Made by a program: the position numbers and the translations under genes
The notes under the pieces: generated by a model
Told to the model about the DNA's origin: nothing
Databases searched by the model: none
Seen by the model: the letters and a program-made list of their open reading frames with translations, nothing else
DNA from: Jaminaea rosea
Taxonomy: Eukaryota; Basidiomycota; Exobasidiomycetes; Microstromatales
Length of the DNA: 64,000 nt
Assembly: GCF_003144245.1 (NCBI RefSeq)
Contig: NW_020289978.1
Coordinates: 620,001 to 684,000, forward strand
Reading direction: 5' to 3'
Shown here: positions 38,861 to 59,344 of the stretch, piece after piece
Layout: the number at the start of each line of letters is the position of its first letter
How positions within the stretch are numbered: the first letter of the stretch is position 1

Positions 38861-41623
38861 ATGTCCCAACTCGTGTGCAGATGGGGCATCGTAGGGCTGC
38901 CACGCTCCACCGAGGCGAAGCGATTCCTCGAGGAGGTGGTGGCAGTTGGTGGTGAGGCAGCTCAATCAGCTCCTATCCAACACCTCATCGCTGCCTTGGC
39001 ATCGGATGACGAGGAAGGACTACCATTACTAGAAGAATGGTGGAAGCAGGTCATTGCTGCCGTGCCCTCCTCGTCATCAGCATCCACGCAACCACACCTC
39101 CTCGGCTCAATGCAGCATCTCCTCAGCCACACGCCAGCGCAATGTCTCCTCCTCTGCCTCTCGTCACCCTCTTCCTCATCCCACGCCCTCTTCGACTACG
39201 CTCACTCTGCCTTATCCGCTGGCAAGTCGGTGCTGATCCCTCGTCCGGCGAGCTTGCAGCTCTCTAGCAGTCAAGCCAAGGCATTGACGCAACTGGCCAA
39301 AGAGAAGCGCGCCTGGTTGGGCATAATGGTCGTCAAGCGCAAGACTGGCCAGACCAAGGTGGCCGCCAAGAGGCTCACAGCCGTTCAAGAAGCGGCGGTT
39401 GCGCTCAATGGGGCTGCTACCGGTACATCTCACCTCTCTTCGTCGCCTATGTCGCCTACGAGCTCGACTGCGGGCACGGCAGGAGCAGGCAACAGCAACT
39501 CGTTGCGATGGGCTGCGGACGAGTGTGCGAGGTGTAGAGAGAGGGGAATGATTGAGAGTAACATGATTGGGTGGGAGGACAATATCGCATTGCTAGAGTG
39601 TCTGGACGAGATCAGAGCGGCCGAGGGCAGCCTTGCTGCAAGAGCGACTGAGAGACCCTCAGACGAGTCCTCACGGCGAGAGCCAGAGCCAATGGGGGAG
39701 CTGCCAGCACTATCGCCGACCACGTCAGCGAAACCCGCAGGACCATCCGAGGCGGCCGCGTCGGACGTCGTACCAGGCAGGGCGATAGAGTCCACGAGCG
39801 ATCCTCAAGAGGGGACTCAGTCCTCGACGGTTCCACCAACGTCAGCTGCTCGCCAGCCCTCAACGCCCAGAAACCGTATACTCGACATCGGCCCACGCCA
39901 CTTTCGCAGAACTCCTGCTCCCGACCAGCGGCGGGTCGACGAGATCAAGGCGCAAGAAGGTCTTGCGGGGGAGAGCGGCGAAAGCGATGCGGATCGGTCG
40001 GCTGATAACAGCACGAGTTTCACATCGTCGCAGGATGACAGCTGTGATTCGATTTTGGTTGGTCAAGGAGATGGAGAGCTGAAGCAGATACAGCGGGACA
40101 TTGTTGATCTGAGGCATATGCTGAGGCAAAAGGATGCACAGATTGCTGCATTGATGGAAGGCAGAGCAGGGCAAGCACCAGACGGCGGAGGGACCACCGA
40201 TGGTCAGGGCGAAATCATCGTGCCTCTAAGCAAGGCGAAGCTCAGCAAGGGAGCCGGTATACGTCTCTCGATGCCTGCTCAAGGCTATGCAGGCTCGACT
40301 CCCTCAGCCGTAGAAGCATCCCGCCTACCACGACGGAGAGGCAGCAGCGTTGGTAGTCTTCACACCAGCAGCGAGTCAACCACTCCCACACGCGCAACCT
40401 TCCCTTCGATGGGCACACACGAGTCCATCAACCCGCCGCCGAGCGAAGTCAACAGCAGCACCGTCGGTGGTAGTCGAGGAGGTCCATCTCCTGGAGGCGG
40501 CCGATCACGGCGCGACGCTGGAACCACTCCTCCCTCTTCGTCCATCCCGCTGCCCCTGCGCGCGTCGAGCGCGGCGAATGCTCAGGAGCAGCAGCAGCCT
40601 CAGCATCGCGGCTCGCCTGCTGCCACACGCATCAGCCTCAATGGACAGAGCAGCTTGAAAGAGGTCAAGGAGGCCGAGACGGACGTCGACGACGGCGGGA
40701 CCAGCGATCGAGCTCCATCTCAGACGGGCTTCCTCGCTCCGACGCGCGCGAGCGAAAACCGTCGACGAGCCACAAACGACCGGGTACAGGGCATCCCGCG
40801 GTACGTCCGTCGCCCCTCCCTCACCGCCTCGCAAGCGCAAAGTGAAAGGGAGGCCGCCACCTCGCCTTCCTCTCCCGACCCACCCCGAGACCCGAGTCCC
40901 GACCTGGTAGTGCAACGCCTTACAAATGATGTCGAGCACTATCGCTCCTCTCTGGAGACCACGCGCCAACAGCTTTCCTTGGCCCAGAGGAATCTCTCCT
41001 CCTTGCAACGGATGTACGACTCCACCAAAGAGGGGCTTGCCTCAGCACGCGTCGAGTCCGAGCGCCGCGAGACGGCCCTGATGCGAAAGGACAAGAGCCT
41101 TGCGGAGGCACTCGAGCGTGCTCGACGAGCAGAGAGCGAGGTGAAAGAGCTCGGCCGCTCCTCCCGAGAGTGGGGGACGCGTGTCCGCGTAGTAGAAGCA
41201 GAGCTGGGCGACGTGCGTCGCCAGACGGCCAAAGCAGAGGGAAGCTATGAGGCCCTGCGTTCCGCCTGGGCCAATACGCGATCCAAGTGGGAAGGCGAGG
41301 TCCAAGGCCTGCGCGAAGAGCTCAGGAAGACGGTCGCGGAGCATCGCGCTGCTGCTCATGCTGCTCAGAAGAGGCTGGAGGAGGTAGAGGAGCAGTGGAA
41401 GGGACGCGAGGGGCAGCGCAAGGGCCTCGAAGCCGTGTTGGAGGCCCTAAGCGGGGAGAGGGAGAAGGCTAGATTGCAGGTCGTGGCCGAGGTGGGACGA
41501 TTGGTGCAACGCGTTGCGCTGGGTGAGGAAGTGAGGCGCGGGCACGAGGGGGACGTCAAGGGGGTTGTGGAGGAGTTAGAGAGGCTGAAGAGGTTGATGC
41601 GCGCCGGGAGTGGAGATGACTAG
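38861..41623 (+). CDS. Uncharacterised coiled-coil protein
   Basis: Single-exon ORF of 920 aa (ATG 38861, MSQLVCRWGIVGLP). The N-terminal about 180 residues look ordered: alternating helices with LIAALASDDEEGLPLLEEWW and SVLIPRPASLQLSSSQAKAL. A short C-x2-C pair (CARCRERG) lies near residue 223. Residues about 240-660 are disordered Ser/Pro/Thr/Arg sequence, with an isolated helix near 405-425 (ELKQIQRDIVDLRHMLRQKD) that could be a short coiled coil. Residues about 690-915 form a long heptad-rich coiled coil (RLTNDVEHYRSSLETTRQQL onward), ending in LKRLMRAGSGDD. No membrane segment or targeting signal. I do not recognise the family; a structural or scaffold role is inferred only from the coiled coil. 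Confidence 0.75.
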   Translation: MSQLVCRWGIVGLPRSTEAKRFLEEVVAVGGEAAQSAPIQHLIAALASDDEEGLPLLEEWWKQVIAAVPSSSSASTQPHLLGSMQHLLSHTPAQCLLLCLSSPSSSSHALFDYAHSALSAGKSVLIPRPASLQLSSSQAKALTQLAKEKRAWLGIMVVKRKTGQTKVAAKRLTAVQEAAVALNGAATGTSHLSSSPMSPTSSTAGTAGAGNSNSLRWAADECARCRERGMIESNMIGWEDNIALLECLDEIRAAEGSLAARATERPSDESSRREPEPMGELPALSPTTSAKPAGPSEAAASDVVPGRAIESTSDPQEGTQSSTVPPTSAARQPSTPRNRILDIGPRHFRRTPAPDQRRVDEIKAQEGLAGESGESDADRSADNSTSFTSSQDDSCDSILVGQGDGELKQIQRDIVDLRHMLRQKDAQIAALMEGRAGQAPDGGGTTDGQGEIIVPLSKAKLSKGAGIRLSMPAQGYAGSTPSAVEASRLPRRRGSSVGSLHTSSESTTPTRATFPSMGTHESINPPPSEVNSSTVGGSRGGPSPGGGRSRRDAGTTPPSSSIPLPLRASSAANAQEQQQPQHRGSPAATRISLNGQSSLKEVKEAETDVDDGGTSDRAPSQTGFLAPTRASENRRRATNDRVQGIPRYVRRPSLTASQAQSEREAATSPSSPDPPRDPSPDLVVQRLTNDVEHYRSSLETTRQQLSLAQRNLSSLQRMYDSTKEGLASARVESERRETALMRKDKSLAEALERARRAESEVKELGRSSREWGTRVRVVEAELGDVRRQTAKAEGSYEALRSAWANTRSKWEGEVQGLREELRKTVAEHRAAAHAAQKRLEEVEEQWKGREGQRKGLEAVLEALSGEREKARLQVVAEVGRLVQRVALGEEVRRGHEGDVKGVVEELERLKRLMRAGSGDD

Positions 41624-41748: not shown

Positions 41749-42970
41749 CTACGCCTTCTGCTGCCCGTTGGGCTCCTCATCTCGTCGTCTCTTTGCCTGC
41801 TCGTCCCAATGCGCTCGTCCCCAAGTAGCCGCCACTAGCAACGGGAAGACAATTGTCGCATCAGCGTACACCTTGACACTCTCCCCTCCCCTCTCTTTAC
41901 TCTTGATCTTCCCCCAACTGATGGCCTCATCCGGCCTGGCTCCACTGTCACTCCCGTCGAACTCCTGCCCTGTATTCACATAGACTGCATAGTCGGCGCC
42001 GTTGCGGAACAGCATGGCGTTGGCAATCTGATGCTTGCAGACCCCACCGCCCAAGACGATCATACCAGCCTTTGGAGCTTTGAGTGACAAGTCATTTAAG
42101 CGGCGGATGTCCTTCACGAGGTCGATTGTGAGATTGGGTGATTTATAGCTGTGGAAGTACAGCATGTCGCCCAGCGAGCCGTCTGTCAAGGCTGGACAGA
42201 AGACGGGGATCTCATTCTGCGAGGGCGAGCCAGCGAAGGCACAAAGGATCAGCCGATGTCACAGCACGCGTACCGCTGCGGCTCAGGCTCACCTTTGCCG
42301 CCCAATAGAGGACACTGCTTTCGTCGCTGATCTCCCTCCCCAACCTCTCGATGACCCTGCTAGGCGTCCAGACATTCTCCACACTCTCACCCTGTTCCTC
42401 CCTCATCTTCTCTAGGATCGGCATGACCCAATCCTCAAACTTGCAATAATTATCGTTAGGCACGACGAGGTTGCCGATCCTGTTCATGCCGCGCTTACGC
42501 AGTTCGCCGCCATCGAGGTGGAAGTCGGCAAGGTAGGTGTGGCCGAGGCATTTGATCAGATCCTCTTCTATTGCACCGGCTGTTGTGACTAGGCAGGATA
42601 CGTATTTGTGCTTGACGAGGAAGAGGAGGACTTCGCGTAGACCTGAGGAGATGAGATTCGATGTGAAGCCAAGGAAGATGGAGCATCGCTGCGGCGTCGG
42701 CTCTGTTGACCCATCATCTCGATCATCGTCCTTGGGCTCTTCTCCTCTCCACCTCCTCATCTTCTCTATAATCTCAACAGCCTTAGCCACGCCGCTCGCC
42801 TGGAATCCGACATTGGCAAAGCTAGCCAGAAGGGAATTGATGTCCTGCGGCTCCTCGAAGTTTGGACCTTGGATTCTCTCGAAGTGCGAAGGGACGGGGG
42901 CGGATTGGACGAAGAGTGAAGCTGAGGCTTCTGATGGGCCGGGTATTGATGACGAAGATGGATCTGCCAT
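41749..42970 (-). CDS. DYS1: Deoxyhypusine synthase
   Basis: Transfers the aminobutyl group of spermidine to a lysine of eIF5A, using NAD, in the cytosol. This is the first step of hypusine formation, needed for translation elongation and termination. Exons 42970-42293 and 42216-41749, with a 76-nt intron, give 381 aa (yeast 387). Motifs seen: [13 protein letters not shown], the [15 protein letters not shown] loop, [33 protein letters not shown]-like before the intron, then the [18 protein letters not shown] block, [20 protein letters not shown] and [13 protein letters not shown] with the predicted catalytic Lys329. An in-frame ATG at 43063 would add 31 hydrophobic residues not seen in the family, so the start MADPSSSS is preferred. 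It is head-to-head with the Elp2-PPAT gene, 185 bp between starts. Confidence 0.95.
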
Positions 42971-43155
42971 GATTGAGAGGAGGAGCTGTTGTGACAGCGA
43001 GAGGATGGCGAGAAGATTTTGGATCTTGAAGGAGGCGGACTGGCGGACTGGAGTCGATTCCATGGGCGGACTGCAAGATTGGACGGACGGAACAGAGGCG
43101 AGGTCCGAGACAAGGAAGCGCGCTTCTCACTTTCTCACCATCGACCATCGTCAGA
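42971..43155. promoter_or_regulatory. Bidirectional promoter, DYS1 / ELP2-PPAT
   Basis: Only 185 bp separate the two divergent start codons, so both genes must share promoter space. No TATA box was seen. If the longer DYS1 start at 43063 were used, the gap would shrink to 92 bp. Confidence 0.5.
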
Positions 43156-46100
43156 ATGGCGACAGCCAGCGACGCCTACATCTCAGCAGGAGTCAATCGC
43201 TCATCACACAATGCAGATTGGACCCTCTACAAGCCCAAAGAGGACCGTCATGAGCCCATCTCGGTGCTCGCCTATGGATCCAGCAGCAGCATTGCAGTCG
43301 CATACAACCTAGGCGACCCCGACTCGAATCATCGTGGCCTGTCCCACTTGGTCGACACGCATTTCACGACGCCGATTACGACGCTCAAATTCATCCCTCT
43401 GGCAGCGGAAGCGGGTTCGCTCGCTTTTGTCGCCGGGGCGGGCAATGGACAGGCGGCTATCTGGGTTGGCAGCGAAGCGTCTCATGACAACGACGATGCT
43501 GCTTCAACGTCGAAGACCTCTTCGCTCTGGAGGCCCCTGAGCTGGCGCATGGCATTCGATCTGACGCAAAAGCCGGCGAAAAGCTCCAAAGCAACGCTTG
43601 TTCCGGTCAAGTCATCTCGTACGGCTGGCTCCTCGGCAGGGACTGTTCAAGCCATTGGCGTCGAACGCGGCGGGCAAGGCATCGACGATACGGCTGCTGC
43701 AACGATCATAGGCATTGGATCTTCAGACGGTACCATCTCGATCTACAGCGTTTCTCTCGCTTCTCTGAGCGCACGGCCGCCCGCAGCAGATGTAGCAACA
43801 ACGCAGCCGCAACTCATTCAAACCTTCACCCCCTCAAAATCCGAGCTAGGTAACGCTCTCCCACTCGACGTCTCCCTCGTCTCACTTCCAGGCAGCAGCG
43901 CCATCCTGATGGCGACCGCAGCCACGGATCGCAAAATTGTATTCTGGCTAGCAGAACAGCGCGGCCAGCCGTTCAGCAAGGTACTGACCCTGCCTGGGCA
44001 CGATGACTGGGTACGATCGCTTGACTTTTCTGCTGCCTTTTCACCCTCCAAAGTGGACGACGGTTCCCACGCTCTCTGCCTCGCAAGTGCCAGTCAGGAT
44101 AGCTCAGTCCGTCTCTGGCGAATCAGGCGGCAAGACTCATCGCCATCGACCGAGCCAGCACCAACAGCACAACCAGCTTCTTCCACCCCGTCAAACGACG
44201 CCTTCGAGGCCCTCGCACGTCAGGTGGAAGATGAAGCCGCGAGCGACTCTGCCGCCTTATCAAGCAAGGTACACACCTTCAGCACCTCCTCCGGTTCAGC
44301 CTCGTGGGCAATCACATTCGACGCTCTCCTCACCGGACACGAGGGCTGGGTGACCGGGGTACGATGGATGCCCACGTCACCGACCACTCCGGCTCAGGAT
44401 CAGCCCGCCGCCCTGGTGAGCTCAAGCGTCGACAATAGCGTGATCCTTTGGACCCCTTCCGGCACCAGCCCCGTGGGCGGCTCAGCCTTGCCCGGCCTAT
44501 CTTCAGCAGAAGCAACCTCCTCCCTCTGGCTGCCATCACACCGCTTTGGCGAACTAGGTGTAGCAGGGGCAGGAGCGATGGGAATGTTTGGTGCCCTTTT
44601 CGATCCGAAGTGGCACCTCAGCCGAGACCATGTCACCGTGGCATCGCATGCTTGGGGTGGACCGGTACACTTGTGGAGCCATGTCGAAGGCGGCGAGGCA
44701 GGTGGTGCAAGATGGGAGAGTCGCCCAGCGATCACGGCGCATGCACTAGCGGTGAAGAGTGCACGCTGGGCACCGAAGGGGGACTGGTTCCTGACGGCCA
44801 GCCTCGATCGCACAGCACGTCTTTTCGGGAAGGTCCGCTCCAGCAACCCTGCCACTGGGTCTTCTTGGCACGAGCTCGCACGCCCACAAACACACGGCTA
44901 CGATTTGCAGTGCGCTGCTTGGCTTCAGGACGGGTTGTCATTCATAAGCGCTGCCGAGGAGAAGGTGGCTCGATTGTTCGCGGCACCGCAGTCTTTTGTG
45001 GATAGTGCGAGGCGACTCGGAGCGACATCACAGGCAACTACAGCTACGCCAACGCACAACTTATTGGCCCTTTCGCTGCCCCGCGAGCTCGATGCGCAAC
45101 AAGGGAGCACGACGCACCTTGAGCACTTGGGCAGGCCGATTCGTGAAGCCGCGGAAATGACTTGCCTTGGACCGAGGCCGCACAGGCTGGTAATCGTGCT
45201 GTGCTCTGCACAATTCGACACGCTCTGCGCTACAGAAGGGGAGGAGTTGGGGCTGGAAACCGTCAGCTTCTCGCAGATTGAGACAATACTGCGCTGGACG
45301 TATGCTCAAGCGTGGGGCGTGGCTGTACAGCGTGACGCTCTCCTGCTGGACGTGGATGCCCTCCTCGTCGGTCAGGCACAGGCGCCGCGCGTTGTGCGCA
45401 AGTGGGGATCGGAGGAGGCGAGTGCGACAGAGAGGCTGCGGTGTGGACGATTCTGGGCGGTGAAGGACTCGACTGCAGTCCTGCCTTTCTTGCTTGCTCA
45501 GAGGCCCGGATCGACGAGCAGCTTGGCGCCAGAATTTTTGCGGTTAGGTCAGGCTGCCGCTCAACCGGATGCTTCCACCAGCGCTGCAGAGGGTAGTGAA
45601 GCCGATGTCGAAAGTCGCCCGCCTTTCCCTCACCATCCTGGCCTCGCCCTAGGCGGGACCTTTGACCACCTGCACTGTGGTCACAAGATCCTTCTCTCTC
45701 TCTCGGCCCTCATTGCCACCGAACTACTCATTGTAGGCATCACAGGCGACTCGATGCTAGCCAAGAAGACGCACCCCGAGCTTGTCGAATCCATCCAAGA
45801 AAGGCGAGCTGCCGTTCGTCAATTCTTGCAGACCTTCACGAGCACCATGCCAAGGAAGAGGAGAATGAGGTATAACCTCGCCGCGTTGAAGGACGTTGCC
45901 GGTCCCGCGGGGACGGAGGTTGAGCTGCAAGCCATGCTCCTCACAGAGGAGACGGTAAGCGGTGGCGACTACATAGACAATGCGCGCAAGGAGCGCGGCC
46001 TCAGTGCTCCGTTGCAGCGGTACGTCATGGGTGTATTAGGCGCGAGTGGAGAGACGGATGTGAAAGGGCAAAGTGCGGCCGAGTTGGCTGCGGCTAAGGT

Positions 46101-47310
46101 GGGGAGTACGGCCATTCGCAAGTGGCTGAGTGAGCAGGGTGCAAGGGTCAGGGCAGAGGCAAGACGGAGGATGCGAGCTATAGTCTCCGAGTCGCAGAAA
46201 GAAGACATAGAGGCTTCTGCGAAGGCAAGCGGTCAGCAGGCGCCAGGATCAGCTCGACCACTCGCTGCGACGGTTCCTGCTCTCGGACTGTCGAATCGCG
46301 CCGTCTACGAAGGGCAAAGCGGAGAGGACACGCAAGTAGACGATCTTGGCCGAACGGTCACTGCCGAAACCAACGGCAGTATCCATTCCCTGAGCGACGG
46401 CACCAGCTCAACATATCCGCGTCCTCCCGTGGAGGAAGAGCTCCTCTCCACGACCCTCTGGCCGGAGCTCGACAAACTCTATGGACACGGGTACGAGCTC
46501 CTCTGCGTCGACTCATCCCCCACTTCCCCCCTCGTCGCTACCTCGTGCCGCGCCACTTCCAGACAACACTGCGCCATCCGGGTGTACGACGCTTCGCAGC
46601 ACTGGAAGCAGGTGGCCATTCTCCCAGGTCACTCTTTGAGTGTCACTAGGATACGGTTCAGCCCAGACGGCAGGTGGATATTGAGCGTGTCTAGGGATAG
46701 AAGCTGGAGATTGTGGAGTGTTGAGCGTGCCGAGAAGGAGGCAGATGGAAGTGATGCTGGCGAATGGCGCTTCGCTGCGTTTGCCGGCGGGGACGGAGAC
46801 GATGATGACGAAGAGACGTCGAAGCAGATACAGCTTCCCCACACCCGCATTGTGTGGGACGCCGCATGGGCCGACGATGGGAAGACCTTCGCCACCGCCT
46901 CGCGCGATCGATCCGTCAAGATTTGGAGATTGGCACCCAGCGCAGTGCTTGCGCAGCGTCAGCAGAAGGGCGCGGATGCCACCGAAGAGGAGGGGCCTGT
47001 CGCTCTCGTCGCTACCGTCTCGCGTCTCGCCGCTGGTGCGACCGCTGTTGCCTTTGACCTTTGGAATCGCTTAGCCGTCGGACTCGACAATGGTACGGTG
47101 GCGGTGTACCAAATTGCGAGGACAGGAGATCCGGAGGAGATGCGCTTGCTCCTGACCTTGCCCGGCCACCACTCTGGCGCTATTAACGAAGTGGCTTGGC
47201 GGCCGCACACGGCGGGCGAGGAGGAAGCCAAAGATGCTACCGGACTTTTGCTGTCGGCCGGGGAAGATGGCGCTGTACGCCTGACGAAGGTGGAGAGCAA
47301 CATCGTCTAG
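43156..47310 (+). CDS. ELP2: Elongator subunit Elp2 with an inserted phosphopantetheine adenylyltransferase
   Basis: One intron-free ORF of 1,384 aa. Residues 1-635 match the N-terminal WD40 half of Elp2: GHDDWVRSLDFSAAF, SASQDSSVRLWRI, LLTGHEGWVTGVRWMP, ASLDRTARLFGKV and WHELARPQTHGYDLQCA. Residues 1036-1384 match its C-terminal half from ATVPALGLSNRA, then LWPELDKLYGHGYELLC, VSRDRSWRLWS, HTRIVWDAAWADDG and TASRDRSVKIWRL. Between them, residues about 637-1015, lies a complete fungal-type PPAT. It has an N-terminal helper region (RLVIVLCSAQFDTLC, LLLDVDALLVGQ), the nucleotide-binding GGTFDHLHCGHK (833-844), LLIVGITGDSML, LTEETVSGGDYIDNAR and KVGSTAIRKW (981-990). PPAT makes dephospho-CoA from 4'-phosphopantetheine; Elp2 is the WD40 scaffold of the acetyl-CoA-using tRNA-modifying Elongator. 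The catalytic residues look intact. It is convergent with THO3 (37 bp). Confidence 0.93.
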   Translation: MATASDAYISAGVNRSSHNADWTLYKPKEDRHEPISVLAYGSSSSIAVAYNLGDPDSNHRGLSHLVDTHFTTPITTLKFIPLAAEAGSLAFVAGAGNGQAAIWVGSEASHDNDDAASTSKTSSLWRPLSWRMAFDLTQKPAKSSKATLVPVKSSRTAGSSAGTVQAIGVERGGQGIDDTAAATIIGIGSSDGTISIYSVSLASLSARPPAADVATTQPQLIQTFTPSKSELGNALPLDVSLVSLPGSSAILMATAATDRKIVFWLAEQRGQPFSKVLTLPGHDDWVRSLDFSAAFSPSKVDDGSHALCLASASQDSSVRLWRIRRQDSSPSTEPAPTAQPASSTPSNDAFEALARQVEDEAASDSAALSSKVHTFSTSSGSASWAITFDALLTGHEGWVTGVRWMPTSPTTPAQDQPAALVSSSVDNSVILWTPSGTSPVGGSALPGLSSAEATSSLWLPSHRFGELGVAGAGAMGMFGALFDPKWHLSRDHVTVASHAWGGPVHLWSHVEGGEAGGARWESRPAITAHALAVKSARWAPKGDWFLTASLDRTARLFGKVRSSNPATGSSWHELARPQTHGYDLQCAAWLQDGLSFISAAEEKVARLFAAPQSFVDSARRLGATSQATTATPTHNLLALSLPRELDAQQGSTTHLEHLGRPIREAAEMTCLGPRPHRLVIVLCSAQFDTLCATEGEELGLETVSFSQIETILRWTYAQAWGVAVQRDALLLDVDALLVGQAQAPRVVRKWGSEEASATERLRCGRFWAVKDSTAVLPFLLAQRPGSTSSLAPEFLRLGQAAAQPDASTSAAEGSEADVESRPPFPHHPGLALGGTFDHLHCGHKILLSLSALIATELLIVGITGDSMLAKKTHPELVESIQERRAAVRQFLQTFTSTMPRKRRMRYNLAALKDVAGPAGTEVELQAMLLTEETVSGGDYIDNARKERGLSAPLQRYVMGVLGASGETDVKGQSAAELAAAKVGSTAIRKWLSEQGARVRAEARRRMRAIVSESQKEDIEASAKASGQQAPGSARPLAATVPALGLSNRAVYEGQSGEDTQVDDLGRTVTAETNGSIHSLSDGTSSTYPRPPVEEELLSTTLWPELDKLYGHGYELLCVDSSPTSPLVATSCRATSRQHCAIRVYDASQHWKQVAILPGHSLSVTRIRFSPDGRWILSVSRDRSWRLWSVERAEKEADGSDAGEWRFAAFAGGDGDDDDEETSKQIQLPHTRIVWDAAWADDGKTFATASRDRSVKIWRLAPSAVLAQRQQKGADATEEEGPVALVATVSRLAAGATAVAFDLWNRLAVGLDNGTVAVYQIARTGDPEEMRLLLTLPGHHSGAINEVAWRPHTAGEEEAKDATGLLLSAGEDGAVRLTKVESNIV

Positions 47311-47347
47311 TGTGCCTCTGATGGAAATGCAATACCTCGATTTCACC

Positions 47348-48519
47348 TTATAATCCCCAGACCCTTACCGTCCCCTCCTGTCCCTGCCCTCTTTCGTCGC
47401 CCGCATAAGCCAACAAATGCCTTGTAGGAGACCAGCTCAGCGCATTGACTGTGCCTACCGCAGGCAGCTTATGCAGCCTGCGTCCATCAACAGTCGACCC
47501 AATCCACACCACTGCATCCTCCCCGCCTGCGGCGATGAACTCGCCGTCGTGGCTGAAGGAAATGGAGCGAGGCGGTGTCTGCAGGTCCCCTCCAGCCATC
47601 CAGTGCGACTGAAGCTCAGGCAGCGTCCAGCAGGCGATTGTGGCATCGGCGCTCCCTGTTGCTAGGTATCGTCCGAGCGGGTCGAAGCGACCACAGAAGA
47701 CGGTGGCCGTGTGCGCCACGAGGGTGTGGACCGGTGGCCAGTCGATTGTTGGCATGGGCTTAGGCGCGGTAGAGTCACTGCCATTGGTCATGTCAGCATC
47801 CTCTCCCACTGTCTGCTTTACCTCGTCCACCAGCTTCTCCGGATCATTATGCGCTCTAGCGTCATACATCCTCACATACCCCTTGCCCGTTGTAGCGATA
47901 AAGATGCTGCCACCGTTGGACCAGCCTATCTCATTGATCTCCTCATTGCTGCTCGATGACCCGGCCTTGATCGTTCCTAGAATCTTGCCGGGTCCATTGC
48001 GCACGTCGATGAGGGAGAGAACGTCTTCCCTGTTGCCGACGGCGAGCAGATGCCCCTTGGGATGGAAGGAAAGATTGATATTGCTGCCAGGGGTCGAGGT
48101 AGTGAAGATGGGCTGCAGGGTACGGGTATCCCATAGTCTGGCGAGTTGGAGTGGAGGATGTCAGGCTGAGTCCCTCACGAGGTTCATACATTCGCCTCCT
48201 CGCTTGCTCACCTGACGGTCCTATCCAGGGCAGCAGTCGCGACCCTCTCCGGATTCGTTGGATCCCACACAAGGGCCTCGACCGTATCCGTATGCCCTCT
48301 CAGCTCTTGGCTGCTTCGATCTAGCGAAGCCCTCTCAGGCTGCCAGATCCTCACTGCCTTGTCACTTCCGCCCGAGGCAAGCTTACGCCCATCACACGAC
48401 CAGGCTAGACATCGTACGGCACGATGATGCCCGCCTTTGAGCTCTTTGGGCGCTTTCCAGGTTGAGAAGCGTGGGTCTCGCAAGTCGCGACGGGCAAAGA
48501 TGTCTTCGTTGTCTTGCAT
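47348..48519 (-). CDS. THO complex subunit 3 (Tex1/THOC3-like WD40)
   Basis: WD40 protein of the THO/TREX complex that couples transcription with nuclear mRNA export. Exons 48519-48212 and 48137-47348, with a 74-nt intron splitting T-V-R|LWD, give 365 aa. WD repeats: HHRAVRCLAWSCDGRKLASG near residue 33, LRGHTDTVEALVWDPTNPER, LWDTRTLQPIF, NINLSFHPKGHLLAVGNRED, INEIGWSNGG, TLVAHTATVFCGRFDPLGRY, SISFSHDGEFIAAGGED and TVNALSWSPTRHLLAYAGDE, ending VRVWGL. The order and spacing, especially the GRFDPLGRYLATGSADA-like and AAGGED blocks, fit THOC3/Tex1 better than other WD families. An in-frame ATG at 48723 would add 68 residues of low similarity. The internal start MQDNEDIFARRD was chosen because it leaves a normal promoter gap to the divergent gene at 48857. 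Confidence 0.87.
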
Positions 48520-48856
48520 CGGATTGCTGTTGGAAGAGGAGCCCGAGGTGGCGAGACTCACGGGAAGGAAGGGGATCTGGAAGAGACAGGAGGAGCGTTG
48601 GGGATTGAATGAATGCAGCTTGTTGGCCAGAGCGCGAAGAAGCATTGGACCATCGCAAGACACGGAAGCAGCACCACGTGGAAACGGAAAGGCGGCGTCG
48701 GTGCGAGCTTTTAGGAACATCAAGGCCCAGTCGACGACGTTGAGGGCAGCAACTTAGCACCCTTGCAATCTCTCATCACCATCGCCGGCCTTTACTTCGT
48801 TGCGCTCATCCTGCACAATGGCATGACGCCTTCTCCTCTCAATCCAGAGCTATAGC
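48520..48856. promoter_or_regulatory. Divergent promoter region
   Basis: A 337-bp gap between the THO3-like gene and the divergent mitochondrial-type gene. Part of it (48520-48723) is open in the THO3 frame and could be an N-terminal extension. No TATA box was seen. Confidence 0.45.
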
Positions 48857-54225: not shown

Positions 54226-57200
54226 TCACTCCACGGGCCCGAAAGTGGGCGACCAGCCCTCCTCCTCTCCCTGTGCCCTTGACGCGGCTTTCTCCCTCGC
54301 CTCCTGACGACCGCCCCCACTCTGCGGCACACGTTGCTCGTTGCCACGGGTCGAATTACCTTGACTTTGTTGGGCCGACGACGGTATGGTCCGCTGAGCA
54401 GCATCAACAGACGCAGGCGACACGTCCTCCCATGACGTCGAGAAGGTGTCCTGTCTTGAAGCTGCGGAAGGTCTTGTCGGCGGCACTTGATAGTGCGAGC
54501 CCGTAACTGCCGGCGCAGCAGTGCCTCCATGGCCTGTAGCTGAGCTGAGTGGCTCATCGACTGGGCGAGGATGACCAGGCGAATCATCTGGTGATGGGAC
54601 GACATTGAAGAAGCTCTCTTCCTGCGTCATCGAGGTATTGGATGGGGAGGGGTCGATGAAGACTCCGTCCTCCTCCTCTGCAATCTCCTGGCTCGAGGCG
54701 CGGCTCGCTCCGTGTTCTTGGCCATTGCTTTGCTGTTCCACGTCGCGCGGGCCAAAGGGCTTTGCCTCGTCGCGCAGCGGTGTCGGAGGGGATATCGGCT
54801 TCCTTTGCCTAGGTGAAGTGGGAAGCTGGATCGCTTGCGGGCTCTCGTGCTGCTCTTGTGGGCTCGCTGCTTCGCTCGCAGCAGCGTAGGGGAACGGCAC
54901 ACTACTTCCACTCCCGCTGCTCTTGCTCGTCGTCGTTGTCATGCTGCTGTCCGCGCTGGGCGTGGCTTCATCCGTGCGGCTTGAAGGGGCGCCAGGACGC
55001 GACGCGGTCATCGTCGAGGGGCCAATGGTGGTAGAGGATGCTTCTGAGCGCTTTGTTCCCCTCCGCGAAGGATTGCGAGCCGTTGCGTCGGATGCCATCG
55101 AAGAGAGGCGCGGTCGCTCTCGCTCTGTCTCTGTGTCGCGAGACGGCTGCAAAGAAGACGGGGCGGACGCCGCTGTTGTGTAGGTGGCCGTATCCTCAGA
55201 AGTGAGGCTGGGTCGCTCGTCCGTAGATCCCTGAGAAATGGTGAGCATCGTCTTGACGTCCAACTGCCCTCCTTTGTCTCCTTCGTCAGCAGCTCGTTGA
55301 CCCGCAGCGCTGCGTCCCCTGGTCGCGGTGGAATCCTCATCTGCGCCTCTTTCGCTGCCAGTACCTACGTCGCCTTCATCCGTCTGCGAACTCTCCGAGA
55401 AGCTCTCTAGCGAGGGATCGTCATCAACTTGACTTGCCTTCCCGCCTCCAGTGGACAGCCCATCCCCTTCATCGAATTCGTCGTCGTCATCATCATCGTC
55501 CCTCATCCACCTAGGCATTGCCTCCTGCAAACTGAAGATCGGCTTTGGAAGCGACTTGACTCTCGATGCCAGATCGGACAGTGAGGGCTCGATGTCTCCA
55601 GTGTCCGGATCGATATCGACAAGGAAGCCCAGCAGCATTGAGGGGTCCAGGCTGCGCACCGGCATACGGCGGGGGCGATCGCAGTGGTAGGTGGAAAGCT
55701 CGGCGTCAGAGTAGGCGGAGAGATACCAAGTGGTCCGGGCGCGCTCGGATTCGTCGTTCTCGTCCAGCTCCTGGGACACGGCGTCTCCTTGCTCCTTCTC
55801 CCTCCTCACGCTCGCCACCGGCGGCGGTGGATGCTTGAATGGCACCACTCCCCTGACGTGATGCGGATCCAGGTAGAGGAGCTCACCCCCCTGAAACCCT
55901 ACGAAGTAATACGATGACCCAGGCCGGCCACCGGCAATCCCCACGCTTTGTGGGAAGGTGAACAGCTGCCGAATCGAATCGTAGTACGTTGGATGGACAC
56001 CCTCCAAACCCAGACGCACGTTGATCAAAATCAAAACCGGTCGCGCTCTCTTTTCTCCCGCCGAATTTGATGGAGCTTTCGCAGCCCTTCTCACCTCATT
56101 CAGATATACGACACCGTCCGTCGCTGTCGACACGCCCAACCCCGCTTGCGGCCATTCATCCACCAGCTTCCTGATCGCACCCGCAGCGGTACTGGGCCCG
56201 AACCACTCGCCCACCTCTTTGCCGAGGCGTTTGCCCTCGCGAGCCATGCGGTGCACGCTGAACGGGCAAGACGAGGACGGATCGTCCATGAACCAGCTCA
56301 AGAGCTCCACGTAGCGAGCTTGGCGGCGTCGGCTGGCTAGGTAGGCCGCTTGATCTGCTTCGGAGGAGACGACAGGAGGAGGAGAAGCTGGCAGCGGAGC
56401 ACGCCTCCAGTCGCGTCCAAGATGCACCTCGACGAGGGCATTTGCTAGCAGGCTCTGTCCTGTGCGCAACATGCATCCCCACCCTGCGTCCGTGGTCAGA
56501 CCCGAGCGACCTGTCAGCCCTGTAGCCTGAACGGCAGCCGTAGCGCGACCCCAGAGATTGGGAAGAATGCCCATCTTCTCGCTGAGCGACGAGGCAGGCG
56601 CAGGGATAGGGGCAGGAGGTGTGATCGAGGGCGGAGAGGAGGATGTGGTGGTAGTAGTGTTGCTGGTGCTGGGTGATACGCCTAGAGCGGCCCCAAGGGA
56701 GGGGGAGGAGTGCGAGGCGGCCTCCATGCCGGGTGTGGCGTCGATGAGGCGACGGGTCAGCCAGCTGCCAGCGTTGCGCGGGCCTGATGGTGTAGCGGGA
56801 GGTGCGGAAGCGGTGACAGAACCTGACAGAGAGCTAGCAGGGCGCGAAGCCGCTTCATTGCCAGCCGCAGCCTCAGAAGCAGCTGCAGCGATGGTAGCAG
56901 CCGCTTCCTCCGCCTCCTTCGAGATGGTTCCATCCCTGGCAATCGGCCCAAAGTGGTTGCGATATGTGCACCAGATGCGCGACTGAAAGTCAGATTGGAA
57001 GTCGTTTGAAGAGGCAACGCGATGCAGTAGGTCGCCCTTTTGAGTGCTTGTCCCTGGCGAGGACACTGCTGCTGGGCGATGACGGGACGATTTGGGCATG
57101 GGCGGAGAGGTAGCATCGGAAGGCCGTGGCTTTGTTGGGGAGCCTGTAGACGAGGTGGGTGTCTCGGCATAGCTGCGCGGCGTCTCCTCGCTGGCAGTCG

Positions 57201-58974
57201 ACTTGCGCACGCCCGGCCGGTTGTCATCGTCCGAAGGCGGAGAAGGCTCATCGCCACTGCGCTCCTTGACCGGGCTAGTCGGCGCACTAGCCTCCTGAAT
57301 CTCGATGGCAGGGCCGAGACGCTGCGTCACTCCACTCTCGTTCGCCGAAGCTGTCTCTACAGGGGCTCCTCGCCCGCCGTGCTTCACGCCAAGCAACCAG
57401 ATCTCTTCCTCTTGACCGCCCTCATGTATATATCGCAATGCCCTCTCGAGCCCCGCGGTGCTCGCAGCCGCTCCTGCTGCTGCTTGAGCCCTCGCACGGG
57501 CATTGGAAAGGAAGCCAGGACCCGCGTTGTGGTGGTGAGGCTTAGCCACGTTACCTCCGGTGCCGGGGGCGTTGGTACTTTGCGATGACTTAGCTCTGCT
57601 GGAAGCCGAGGCTGTTGACGCCACGGATGTGTTGCTTTGCCGCCGCAAGGAAGAAGGAGGGGATTTGGTCGACTCTGCAGTGGTTGTAGTAGTAGTCGTG
57701 ACCGCCGCACTCTGAGGTGGACTGTCTGACGCTAGTATGTTGAGCAGCCAGCCTGAGAGACGCTTTGGCAAACCTCCCTCACCGTACCCTTCGTCAGGCG
57801 CTGCAAGATGGCGAGCCGCAGAAGCTGATCCGCTACGTGACCTTCCTCCTGGCGTAGCTTGGACATTGGCGCCGGGCAAGACACGGGATGCTACGGCCTC
57901 GATGCTGTGGCGGGGCACAGAGAGGATTGACGCGCTATCACCGCCATCGCCTTCTGAGTGCCGCCCTGACCTAGCATGCAGCCAATCGGGCATGGCCCTC
58001 TCCGCCATGTTGCCCGCTCGTCTGCCGAGGCTAGCCGCAGTGGAGCTGACCGCTGAAGCCGCACCGGTACTGGCCAGGCTGTCCTGAGAAGCATTGAGCG
58101 ATTCTCGAGACACCTCGCCGAGACGATTGCGGCTGCCGATCCTGCGCAACAGGCCCGGTCCCCCACCTCCACCCCCTACTCCTCCTTCCCTTTGCTGGGA
58201 AGCTTCGCTATTTGTCGATGGTCGAACTGGCTGAAAGGAGGGCGAACGAGCAAAGAGCCCCTTGCGTTGTTGAGGCTGAGGCGAGGCAGATGATCGGCGA
58301 GCCGCTTCGGAACTGGCATTGACATCTTCGCCTCCCTTAGCGATTGCATCAGAATCTTTGAAGGCTGCCAGCATGCTGGACCGCGGCAGCTTTCTTCCCT
58401 TGACGGTGATCTGGCCGACATCATCGATCGCGTCCATGTCACTGGTGTGATTACCCAGACTAGAACCGGGACGTAGTCGACGCCATGTGCTTGAGCGTGG
58501 ACGTCCACCAGATGATGACGATGTCGTCTCAACATGGGATGCTGAGCTTGGGGAACGGTCCAGCTTAGGAGGCGAGCGGATGGCATCTATGCCGACAGAG
58601 GCGGATCGATTGCGAGTGTGAGACTGGGTATTTGGAGCCGAAGAAGATGGTGGCGATGACGCAAGGGGTGTCGACGTAGTTGGAGGGCCGTCGTCTCTCT
58701 CTTTTGCCAGGCCAAAGAGCCTATTTGTGCTGTTACTAGCCACCCGGACGAGACTCGACCCGGTGCGACGATGACCCTGTTGACGGGGCTTGCTAGGTCC
58801 TGCCTCGGTCTTATGCTGCGACGTAGGCAGAGGCGGTGGAGCAGGAGAAGAGGTAGATGGATTTGCAGTCGAGGACGACGCTTGTTGGGCTGCTTCCTTG
58901 GACGCCTTTGAGCTAAAGAGGCTCTTGCGGCGAGGCCTTGGCTGAGGGGCACTCCCCTGCCCTTGCGCGGCCAT
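54226..58974 (-). CDS. ATG4: Autophagy cysteine protease Atg4, very large form
   Basis: Peptidase family C54 enzyme that trims and delipidates Atg8. Single-exon ORF; from ATG 58974 (MAAQGQGSAPQP) it encodes 1,582 aa, against about 400-500 in most fungi. The catalytic domain starts near residue 664 (IWCTYRNHFGPIARDG). It is interrupted by about 125 residues of Ala/Ser/Pro-rich insert, then continues with GLTTDAGWGCMLRTGQSLLA (Cys834), PVLILINVRLGLEGVHPTYY, SVGIAGGRPGSSYYFVGFQG and the YLDPHHV motif (Asp1036, His1038). It ends with HCDRPRRMPVRSLDPSMLLG at about 1110. The triad is intact. The N-terminal 660 and C-terminal about 460 residues are disordered, Ser-rich and full of potential phosphosites. 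EDGVFIDP and EESFFNVV near the C-terminus could be LIR-like Atg8-binding motifs. An upstream in-frame ATG (59280) would add 102 residues. Confidence 0.92.
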   Translation of the reverse strand: MAAQGQGSAPQPRPRRKSLFSSKASKEAAQQASSSTANPSTSSPAPPPLPTSQHKTEAGPSKPRQQGHRRTGSSLVRVASNSTNRLFGLAKERDDGPPTTSTPLASSPPSSSAPNTQSHTRNRSASVGIDAIRSPPKLDRSPSSASHVETTSSSSGGRPRSSTWRRLRPGSSLGNHTSDMDAIDDVGQITVKGRKLPRSSMLAAFKDSDAIAKGGEDVNASSEAARRSSASPQPQQRKGLFARSPSFQPVRPSTNSEASQQREGGVGGGGGGPGLLRRIGSRNRLGEVSRESLNASQDSLASTGAASAVSSTAASLGRRAGNMAERAMPDWLHARSGRHSEGDGGDSASILSVPRHSIEAVASRVLPGANVQATPGGRSRSGSASAARHLAAPDEGYGEGGLPKRLSGWLLNILASDSPPQSAAVTTTTTTTAESTKSPPSSLRRQSNTSVASTASASSRAKSSQSTNAPGTGGNVAKPHHHNAGPGFLSNARARAQAAAGAAASTAGLERALRYIHEGGQEEEIWLLGVKHGGRGAPVETASANESGVTQRLGPAIEIQEASAPTSPVKERSGDEPSPPSDDDNRPGVRKSTASEETPRSYAETPTSSTGSPTKPRPSDATSPPMPKSSRHRPAAVSSPGTSTQKGDLLHRVASSNDFQSDFQSRIWCTYRNHFGPIARDGTISKEAEEAAATIAAAASEAAAGNEAASRPASSLSGSVTASAPPATPSGPRNAGSWLTRRLIDATPGMEAASHSSPSLGAALGVSPSTSNTTTTTSSSPPSITPPAPIPAPASSLSEKMGILPNLWGRATAAVQATGLTGRSGLTTDAGWGCMLRTGQSLLANALVEVHLGRDWRRAPLPASPPPVVSSEADQAAYLASRRRQARYVELLSWFMDDPSSSCPFSVHRMAREGKRLGKEVGEWFGPSTAAGAIRKLVDEWPQAGLGVSTATDGVVYLNEVRRAAKAPSNSAGEKRARPVLILINVRLGLEGVHPTYYDSIRQLFTFPQSVGIAGGRPGSSYYFVGFQGGELLYLDPHHVRGVVPFKHPPPPVASVRREKEQGDAVSQELDENDESERARTTWYLSAYSDAELSTYHCDRPRRMPVRSLDPSMLLGFLVDIDPDTGDIEPSLSDLASRVKSLPKPIFSLQEAMPRWMRDDDDDDDEFDEGDGLSTGGGKASQVDDDPSLESFSESSQTDEGDVGTGSERGADEDSTATRGRSAAGQRAADEGDKGGQLDVKTMLTISQGSTDERPSLTSEDTATYTTAASAPSSLQPSRDTETERERPRLSSMASDATARNPSRRGTKRSEASSTTIGPSTMTASRPGAPSSRTDEATPSADSSMTTTTSKSSGSGSSVPFPYAAASEAASPQEQHESPQAIQLPTSPRQRKPISPPTPLRDEAKPFGPRDVEQQSNGQEHGASRASSQEIAEEEDGVFIDPSPSNTSMTQEESFFNVVPSPDDSPGHPRPVDEPLSSATGHGGTAAPAVTGSHYQVPPTRPSAASRQDTFSTSWEDVSPASVDAAQRTIPSSAQQSQGNSTRGNEQRVPQSGGGRQEAREKAASRAQGEEEGWSPTFGPVE

Positions 58975-59344
58975 GACGAAGAAGGGAGAGGTTTGGCCAA
59001 CGAATGGCTCTACCAACAGCGGGGATGCTTTAACCCCTTCGTCGTGAGGCGATGGTGATGACGACGACGATGAGGGACAGAAGATGGAGTTGATTCGAGA
59101 GGTACCGAAGGGAAACGACGACGACTTTGCTCTGGCGCCTCCGCCTCCGCCTCCGCCTCCGCCTTGCCATCGACTTGGGAGCAACGCAACGGCATCGAGG
59201 CTGCAGCGGACTGGCGGCCCTGGATCCCAAGGCGCCGCTTTCCGCTCGCTTTCCTCGCCGCCACCACCACGAAGCCACATTGCTTCTTGCCAGTCGATTC
59301 AAATCAATCAACACCTTGTGAAGGGGGCCCTTCATTAGCGCAAG
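58975..59344. promoter_or_regulatory. Divergent promoter region, ATG4 / POLK
   Basis: 370 bp between the chosen ATG4 start and the polymerase kappa start. A (CCTCCG)n run at about 59139-59164 lies in an open ATG4 frame and would encode poly-Gly if the upstream ATG were used, which argues against coding. Confidence 0.45.

Follow-up and report, generated by a model that had tools for sequence, protein, structure and literature searches.

A phosphopantetheine adenylyltransferase domain nested within a predicted Elp2 of Jaminaea rosea

In a 64,000-nucleotide stretch of the genome of the basidiomycete Jaminaea rosea (contig NW_020289978.1, positions 620,001 to 684,000 of the forward strand; hereafter the window), a single uninterrupted open reading frame (ORF) encodes the Elongator subunit Elp2 and, nested within it, phosphopantetheine adenylyltransferase (PPAT), an enzyme of coenzyme A (CoA) biosynthesis. 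Both protein families are recognized in one frame, the PPAT core adopts the fold of its family, key residues are retained, and the PPAT part possesses neither a start nor a stop codon of its own. From the sequence, we judge that this is probably a genuine domain-insertion fusion, in which a tethered and probably working PPAT is carried within a working Elp2. The open frame and the matches to Elp2 and PPAT confirmed the single Elp2-PPAT-Elp2 ORF that a first-pass annotation of this DNA had described, and sequence, profile, fold and coding-frame evidence all back its proposal of a nested gene fusion.

Results

Two parts of Elp2 flank the insert

The ORF (Table 1) is preceded by an in-frame stop codon ending at 43029, with no in-frame ATG between that stop and the ORF start. 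In a phmmer search against PDB chains, the four best chains among the best 60 of 171 matched sequences were all Elongator complex protein 2, with E-values from 7.1e-92 to 9.2e-69 (7.1e-92 for 8ptx_B and 8.9e-69 for 5m2n_A) and matches spanning both WD40 parts. Each alignment is interrupted at the same place. Query residues 230-618 correspond to residues 156-474 of 8ptx_B and query residues 1033-1379 to residues 492-821, while the alignment to 5m2n_A breaks at query residue 615 (chain residue 472) and restarts at 1032 (chain residue 487). The fusion protein therefore has 414 (versus 8ptx_B) or 416 (versus 5m2n_A) residues where the solved proteins have 17 or 14. We take 8ptx to be human, 8avg to be mouse, and 5m2n and 4xfv to be yeast Elp2, as the matches themselves give the protein name only. 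These structures resemble the fusion protein in that both WD40 parts, the ATVPxLGLSN linker, the basic patch and the LYGHG segment align; their chains of 788-831 residues contrast with its 1,384.

Elp2 has two WD40 propeller domains (PMC5088202). WD-like repeats of the second propeller, assigned partly by eye, number two before the insert (near residues 528-555 and 579-608) and five after it (near 1110, 1158, 1228, about 1290, and 1337). Because two such repeats precede the insert and five follow, we infer that it occupies a linker joining two blades within the second propeller and does not lie between the propellers. This departs from the first-pass annotation, which had put the join between the two halves of Elp2.

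A study of yeast Elp2 (PMC5286394) reported 201-204, 552-557, R626, R628, R654 and R675 to be important for Elongator activity. In our alignment all four arginines are conserved in the fusion protein, and the two short segments differ by conservative changes: yeast HEDW (201-204, counted by eye on the alignment) corresponds to HDDW, and EKLYGH (552-557) to DKLYGH.

The insert carries a PPAT catalytic domain

NCBIfam NF001985 matched residues 831-950 with an E-value of 4.3e-21 and 75.6 bits, under its 104-bit curated cut-off, and the broader superfamily model Pfam PF01467 scored 24.8 bits (E 2.8e-05), over its cut-off of 21. A profile built from 66 archaeal and bacterial relatives found a single domain at 831-958 with 88 bits and an E-value of 3.7e-29, the latter referring to a search of one sequence. 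With single-sequence phmmer, the sole PPAT chain found was 3do8_A (E 0.0018). The window contains a single instance of the coding pattern for GGTFDHLHxGHK, whereas 100 shuffles yielded none.

In a structure prediction, the catalytic core, residues 832-951, was modelled with 10-residue means of the predicted local distance difference test (pLDDT) of 87-96; past residue 951, in the stretch that holds the GSTAIR motif, values were 45-86. A nucleotidyltransferase fold is present in the core, whose nearest solved structure is the archaeal 3do8 (E 2.0e-06, TM-score 0.74 by target length); 3do8 chains took the top two ranks of the fold search and bacterial PPATs ranks 3-10. The Archaeoglobus fulgidus enzyme shares with the fusion PPAT this catalytic fold and an HxGH-type motif, but it is a free-standing chain of 148 residues, without the N-terminal region and without a fusion partner.

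Residues 634-826 are presumably part of the PPAT, an assignment made by position and by likeness to the N-terminal extension that yeast Cab4 carries. A provisional Cab4 sequence, serving as a lead only, gave 40% identity over residues 831-996 (E 6.3e-31) and a best E-value of 1.1 for the N-terminal region.

Conserved residues were compared in an alignment of the window protein with 62 relatives. HxGH is conserved in the fusion PPAT, as are S984 and R988 of the GSTAIR motif. Eleven columns are invariant, nine of which prove nothing because the relatives had been retrieved with a pattern that includes them. R883 and R944 lie outside that pattern; all 62 relatives carry them, and so does the fusion protein, in which A851, G861 and G916 are conserved as well.

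A Pfam search listed 23 families for the fusion ORF at E up to 0.01, none of them a dephospho-CoA kinase.

In seven loci of the comparison (L003, L006, L010, L022, L024, L027 and L031), stop-to-stop frames of about 340-520 codons hold a PPAT-like domain, which therefore seems to be fused to a further part there too. One of these loci is from a Euryarchaeota metagenome-assembled genome (L022); the others are bacterial, mostly from the candidate phyla radiation (CPR).

One frame runs through both joins

Ten other ORFs of the window supplied the codon frequencies with which coding potential was scored. Frame 0 gave 0.130 bits per codon for the N-terminal Elp2 part, 0.114 for the insert and 0.153 for the C-terminal Elp2 part. 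Within the insert all five other frames scored below zero, and frame 0 contains no stop codons versus 16 and 11 in the other forward frames. Another frame exceeded frame 0 in seven 150-base segments (43906, 44431, 45106, 45406, 46531, 46606 and 47056); the insert holds two of these segments and Elp2 sequence proper the remaining five. The second methionine of the PPAT part, residue 867, lies beyond the catalytic motif. Lacking its own start and stop, the PPAT is therefore written as a domain of Elp2.

Coordinates and neighbouring genes

The ORF is flanked by a divergent and a convergent gene (Table 1), and it lies tail-to-tail with the latter, a THOC3-like gene, their stop codons being 37 bases apart (47311-47347). 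Further gene content of the window (a HAM1-like protein, a C54 peptidase, an oxysterol-binding protein and DUF3405, besides the THOC3-like protein) is compatible with a fungus. The C54 peptidase, of the Atg4 type, is encoded by a 1,684-residue ORF at 54226-59280 on the minus strand, with its catalytic domain at residues 759-1222 and long low-complexity arms. A 920-residue ORF at 38861-41623 on the plus strand has a weak N-terminal Gfo/Idh/MocA-like match (E 0.0012) and, further on, a weak SHE3-like match (E 0.0014), both below the cut-off; it may represent another unusual fusion, or else two separate genes. No tRNA gene was found in 1-64000 when ARAGORN was applied with the bacterial code.

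Table 1. Parts of the fusion ORF and its neighbours, in positions of the window.
Feature	Coordinates	Strand	Remarks
Whole fusion ORF, Elp2(N)-PPAT-Elp2(C)	43156..47310	+	1,384 codons plus stop, uninterrupted from ATG
Elp2 N-terminal part, residues 1-617	43156..45006	+	alignment ends at residue 474 of 8ptx_B and 472 of 5m2n_A; by repeat count, probably first propeller plus two blades of second
Left linker, residues 618-633, Ala/Thr-rich	45007..45054	+	outside Elp2 and PPAT matches except residue 618
PPAT N-terminal region, residues 634-826	45055..45633	+	frame 0 best-scoring, 0.075 bits/codon
Met668, first ATG of PPAT part (its residue 35)	45157..45159	+	sole ATG upstream of catalytic motif
PPAT catalytic domain, residues 827-1024	45634..46227	+	profile matches and fold; model confidence lower from about 952 on
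GGTFDHLHCGHK nucleotidyltransferase motif, residues 833-844	45652..45687	+	
GSTAIRKW (ISSTxxR-type) motif, residues 983-990	46102..46125	+	
Right linker, residues 1025-1036	46228..46263	+	
Elp2 C-terminal part, residues 1037-1384, begins AATVPALGLSN	46264..47307	+	8ptx_B 492-821, 5m2n_A 487-684
Deoxyhypusine synthase, ORF with first exon	42212..43063	-	divergent neighbour of fusion ORF
THOC3/TEX1-like gene, intron-split	47348..48723	-	convergent neighbour of fusion ORF

Discussion

A proposed course from gene to enzyme

On the reading that we favour, one mRNA would yield one polypeptide with a complete PPAT in a linker of the second Elp2 propeller. The propellers would close around the insert and Elp2 would join Elongator, while the PPAT, held on flexible linkers, would fold independently and run its usual housekeeping reaction, converting 4'-phosphopantetheine and ATP to dephospho-CoA. 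No cross-talk between the PPAT and Elp2 activities would be needed, and the fusion may mainly set dosage and location.

Several observations weigh against this account. For the first approximately 190 residues of the PPAT part no significant match was obtained, and their model is of low confidence (pLDDT 28-68, with a tentative alpha/beta fold at the start). The frame 0 coding score is about zero at 45031-45255, directly past the left join. The Elp2 beside the insert was modelled without confidence: residues 506-1384 gave a mean pLDDT of 49.4, with the Elp2 parts mostly below 50, from an alignment that contained no Elp2 relatives. Lastly, two positions of the PPAT depart from consensus: D941 stands where 61 of 62 relatives have Asn, and G983 where 53 of 62 have Ser. 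The first-pass annotation had called the PPAT motifs intact, which holds for HxGH and for the Ser and Arg of GSTAIR, but not for these two residues, and full PPAT activity is therefore not assured.

Alternative explanations

These two substitutions also speak for a pseudoenzyme, in which a non-catalytic PPAT insert would play a structural or regulatory role on Elp2 while a working PPAT is encoded elsewhere. The conservation of HxGH, R883/R944 and S984/R988, the confident core fold, and a sequence free of stops and frameshifts argue in the other direction, and we regard a non-catalytic insert as improbable. We hold in similarly low regard the idea that the locus makes two products, with the PPAT stretch removed as an intron or by alternative splicing to leave an ordinary Elp2, and PPAT produced separately, by initiation at Met668 or from a promoter within the locus. 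An internal ATG at 45157 is available for such a product, but a protein begun there would lack the opening strand of the low-confidence N-terminal model and the greater part of its first helix. When every GT in 44950-45100 was combined with every AG in 46151-46330, 34 of the 110 pairs left the frame open, near the one third expected by chance, with excised lengths of 1.15-1.36 kb. An intron of that size would have to be open in frame by chance, whereas those of the deoxyhypusine synthase and THOC3-like genes, read by eye in the window, are shorter than 100 nt and begin with GTGAGC. None of the five GTs near the left border (GTGGCT, GTTCGC, GTCTTT, GTGGAT and GTGCGA) is like these donors, and the sole GTRNGT of the fusion ORF, at 46020, falls within the PPAT. 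Because no GT near the left join resembles the donors of the window, splicing-out of the PPAT stretch appears unlikely.

A third alternative is an assembly artefact, with a PPAT gene misjoined into ELP2; in its favour, the analysis drew on a single sequence. A misjoin would nonetheless have had to place both borders in frame within one short Elp2 linker while losing both the start and the stop of the PPAT, and no repeat of at least 12 nt is common to the two borders; we consider this explanation very improbable indeed.

A further proposal concerns purpose. The PPAT may have been deliberately placed at Elongator, coupling CoA synthesis to the acetyl-CoA-dependent modification of wobble uridines, either by local supply with a recruited dephospho-CoA kinase or through pantetheine or CoA levels that alter Elp2 and hence Elongator activity. 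Elongator uses acetyl-CoA, and conversion of dephospho-CoA to CoA requires dephospho-CoA kinase. Direct channelling of CoA is a weak proposition because PPAT yields dephospho-CoA and no kinase domain was detected in the chain. The channelling or sensing of CoA at Elongator that the first-pass annotation had raised found no support, and coupling in either form seems doubtful to us. In one purification of yeast Elongator another CoA-using enzyme, acetyl-CoA carboxylase (Acc1), was recovered as well; the authors' verdict after co-immunoprecipitation was that Acc1 is a contaminant (PMC10018365).

Comparison with known systems

The monofunctional yeast PPAT Cab4 shares its catalytic domain with the fusion protein, if the provisional sequence serving as our lead is right. 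Cab4 is described in PMC8494682 as a separate protein within a CoA-synthesising complex scaffolded by Cab3. In contrast, the fusion PPAT lacks its own start codon and is nested in Elp2. The same paper describes CoA synthase (COASY) as the bifunctional mammalian enzyme that corresponds to Cab4 plus Cab5. Like the fusion protein, COASY joins PPAT to another protein; its partner is the next enzyme of the pathway, whereas here it is an Elongator subunit. The fusion protein also differs from a bifunctional CoA synthase in that the Pfam search found no dephospho-CoA kinase domain.

Searches of an open-access library, which is incomplete, gave no description of Elp2 or Elongator fused to PPAT, so novelty is not proven. 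Protein scans of viral and prokaryotic contig collections did not recover the same nested architecture, a result that is uninformative for fungi. The PPAT motif pattern had no matches in viral contigs, and two viral-contig matches to the Elp2 linker pattern were judged from their surrounding reading frames to be chance.

Implications

The yeast CAB genes, including CAB4, which encodes PPAT, are essential (PMC8494682), and Elongator contains two copies of each subunit (PMC10018365). The predicted protein is a single chain in which one conserved housekeeping protein is nested within another from a separate pathway. If the fusion is real and conserved in relatives, it would mean that a 400-residue enzyme can be accommodated in a linker of a WD40 propeller that belongs to an obligate complex, and it would offer a natural experiment on whether the supply of CoA and a tRNA modifier that uses acetyl-CoA gain from proximity.

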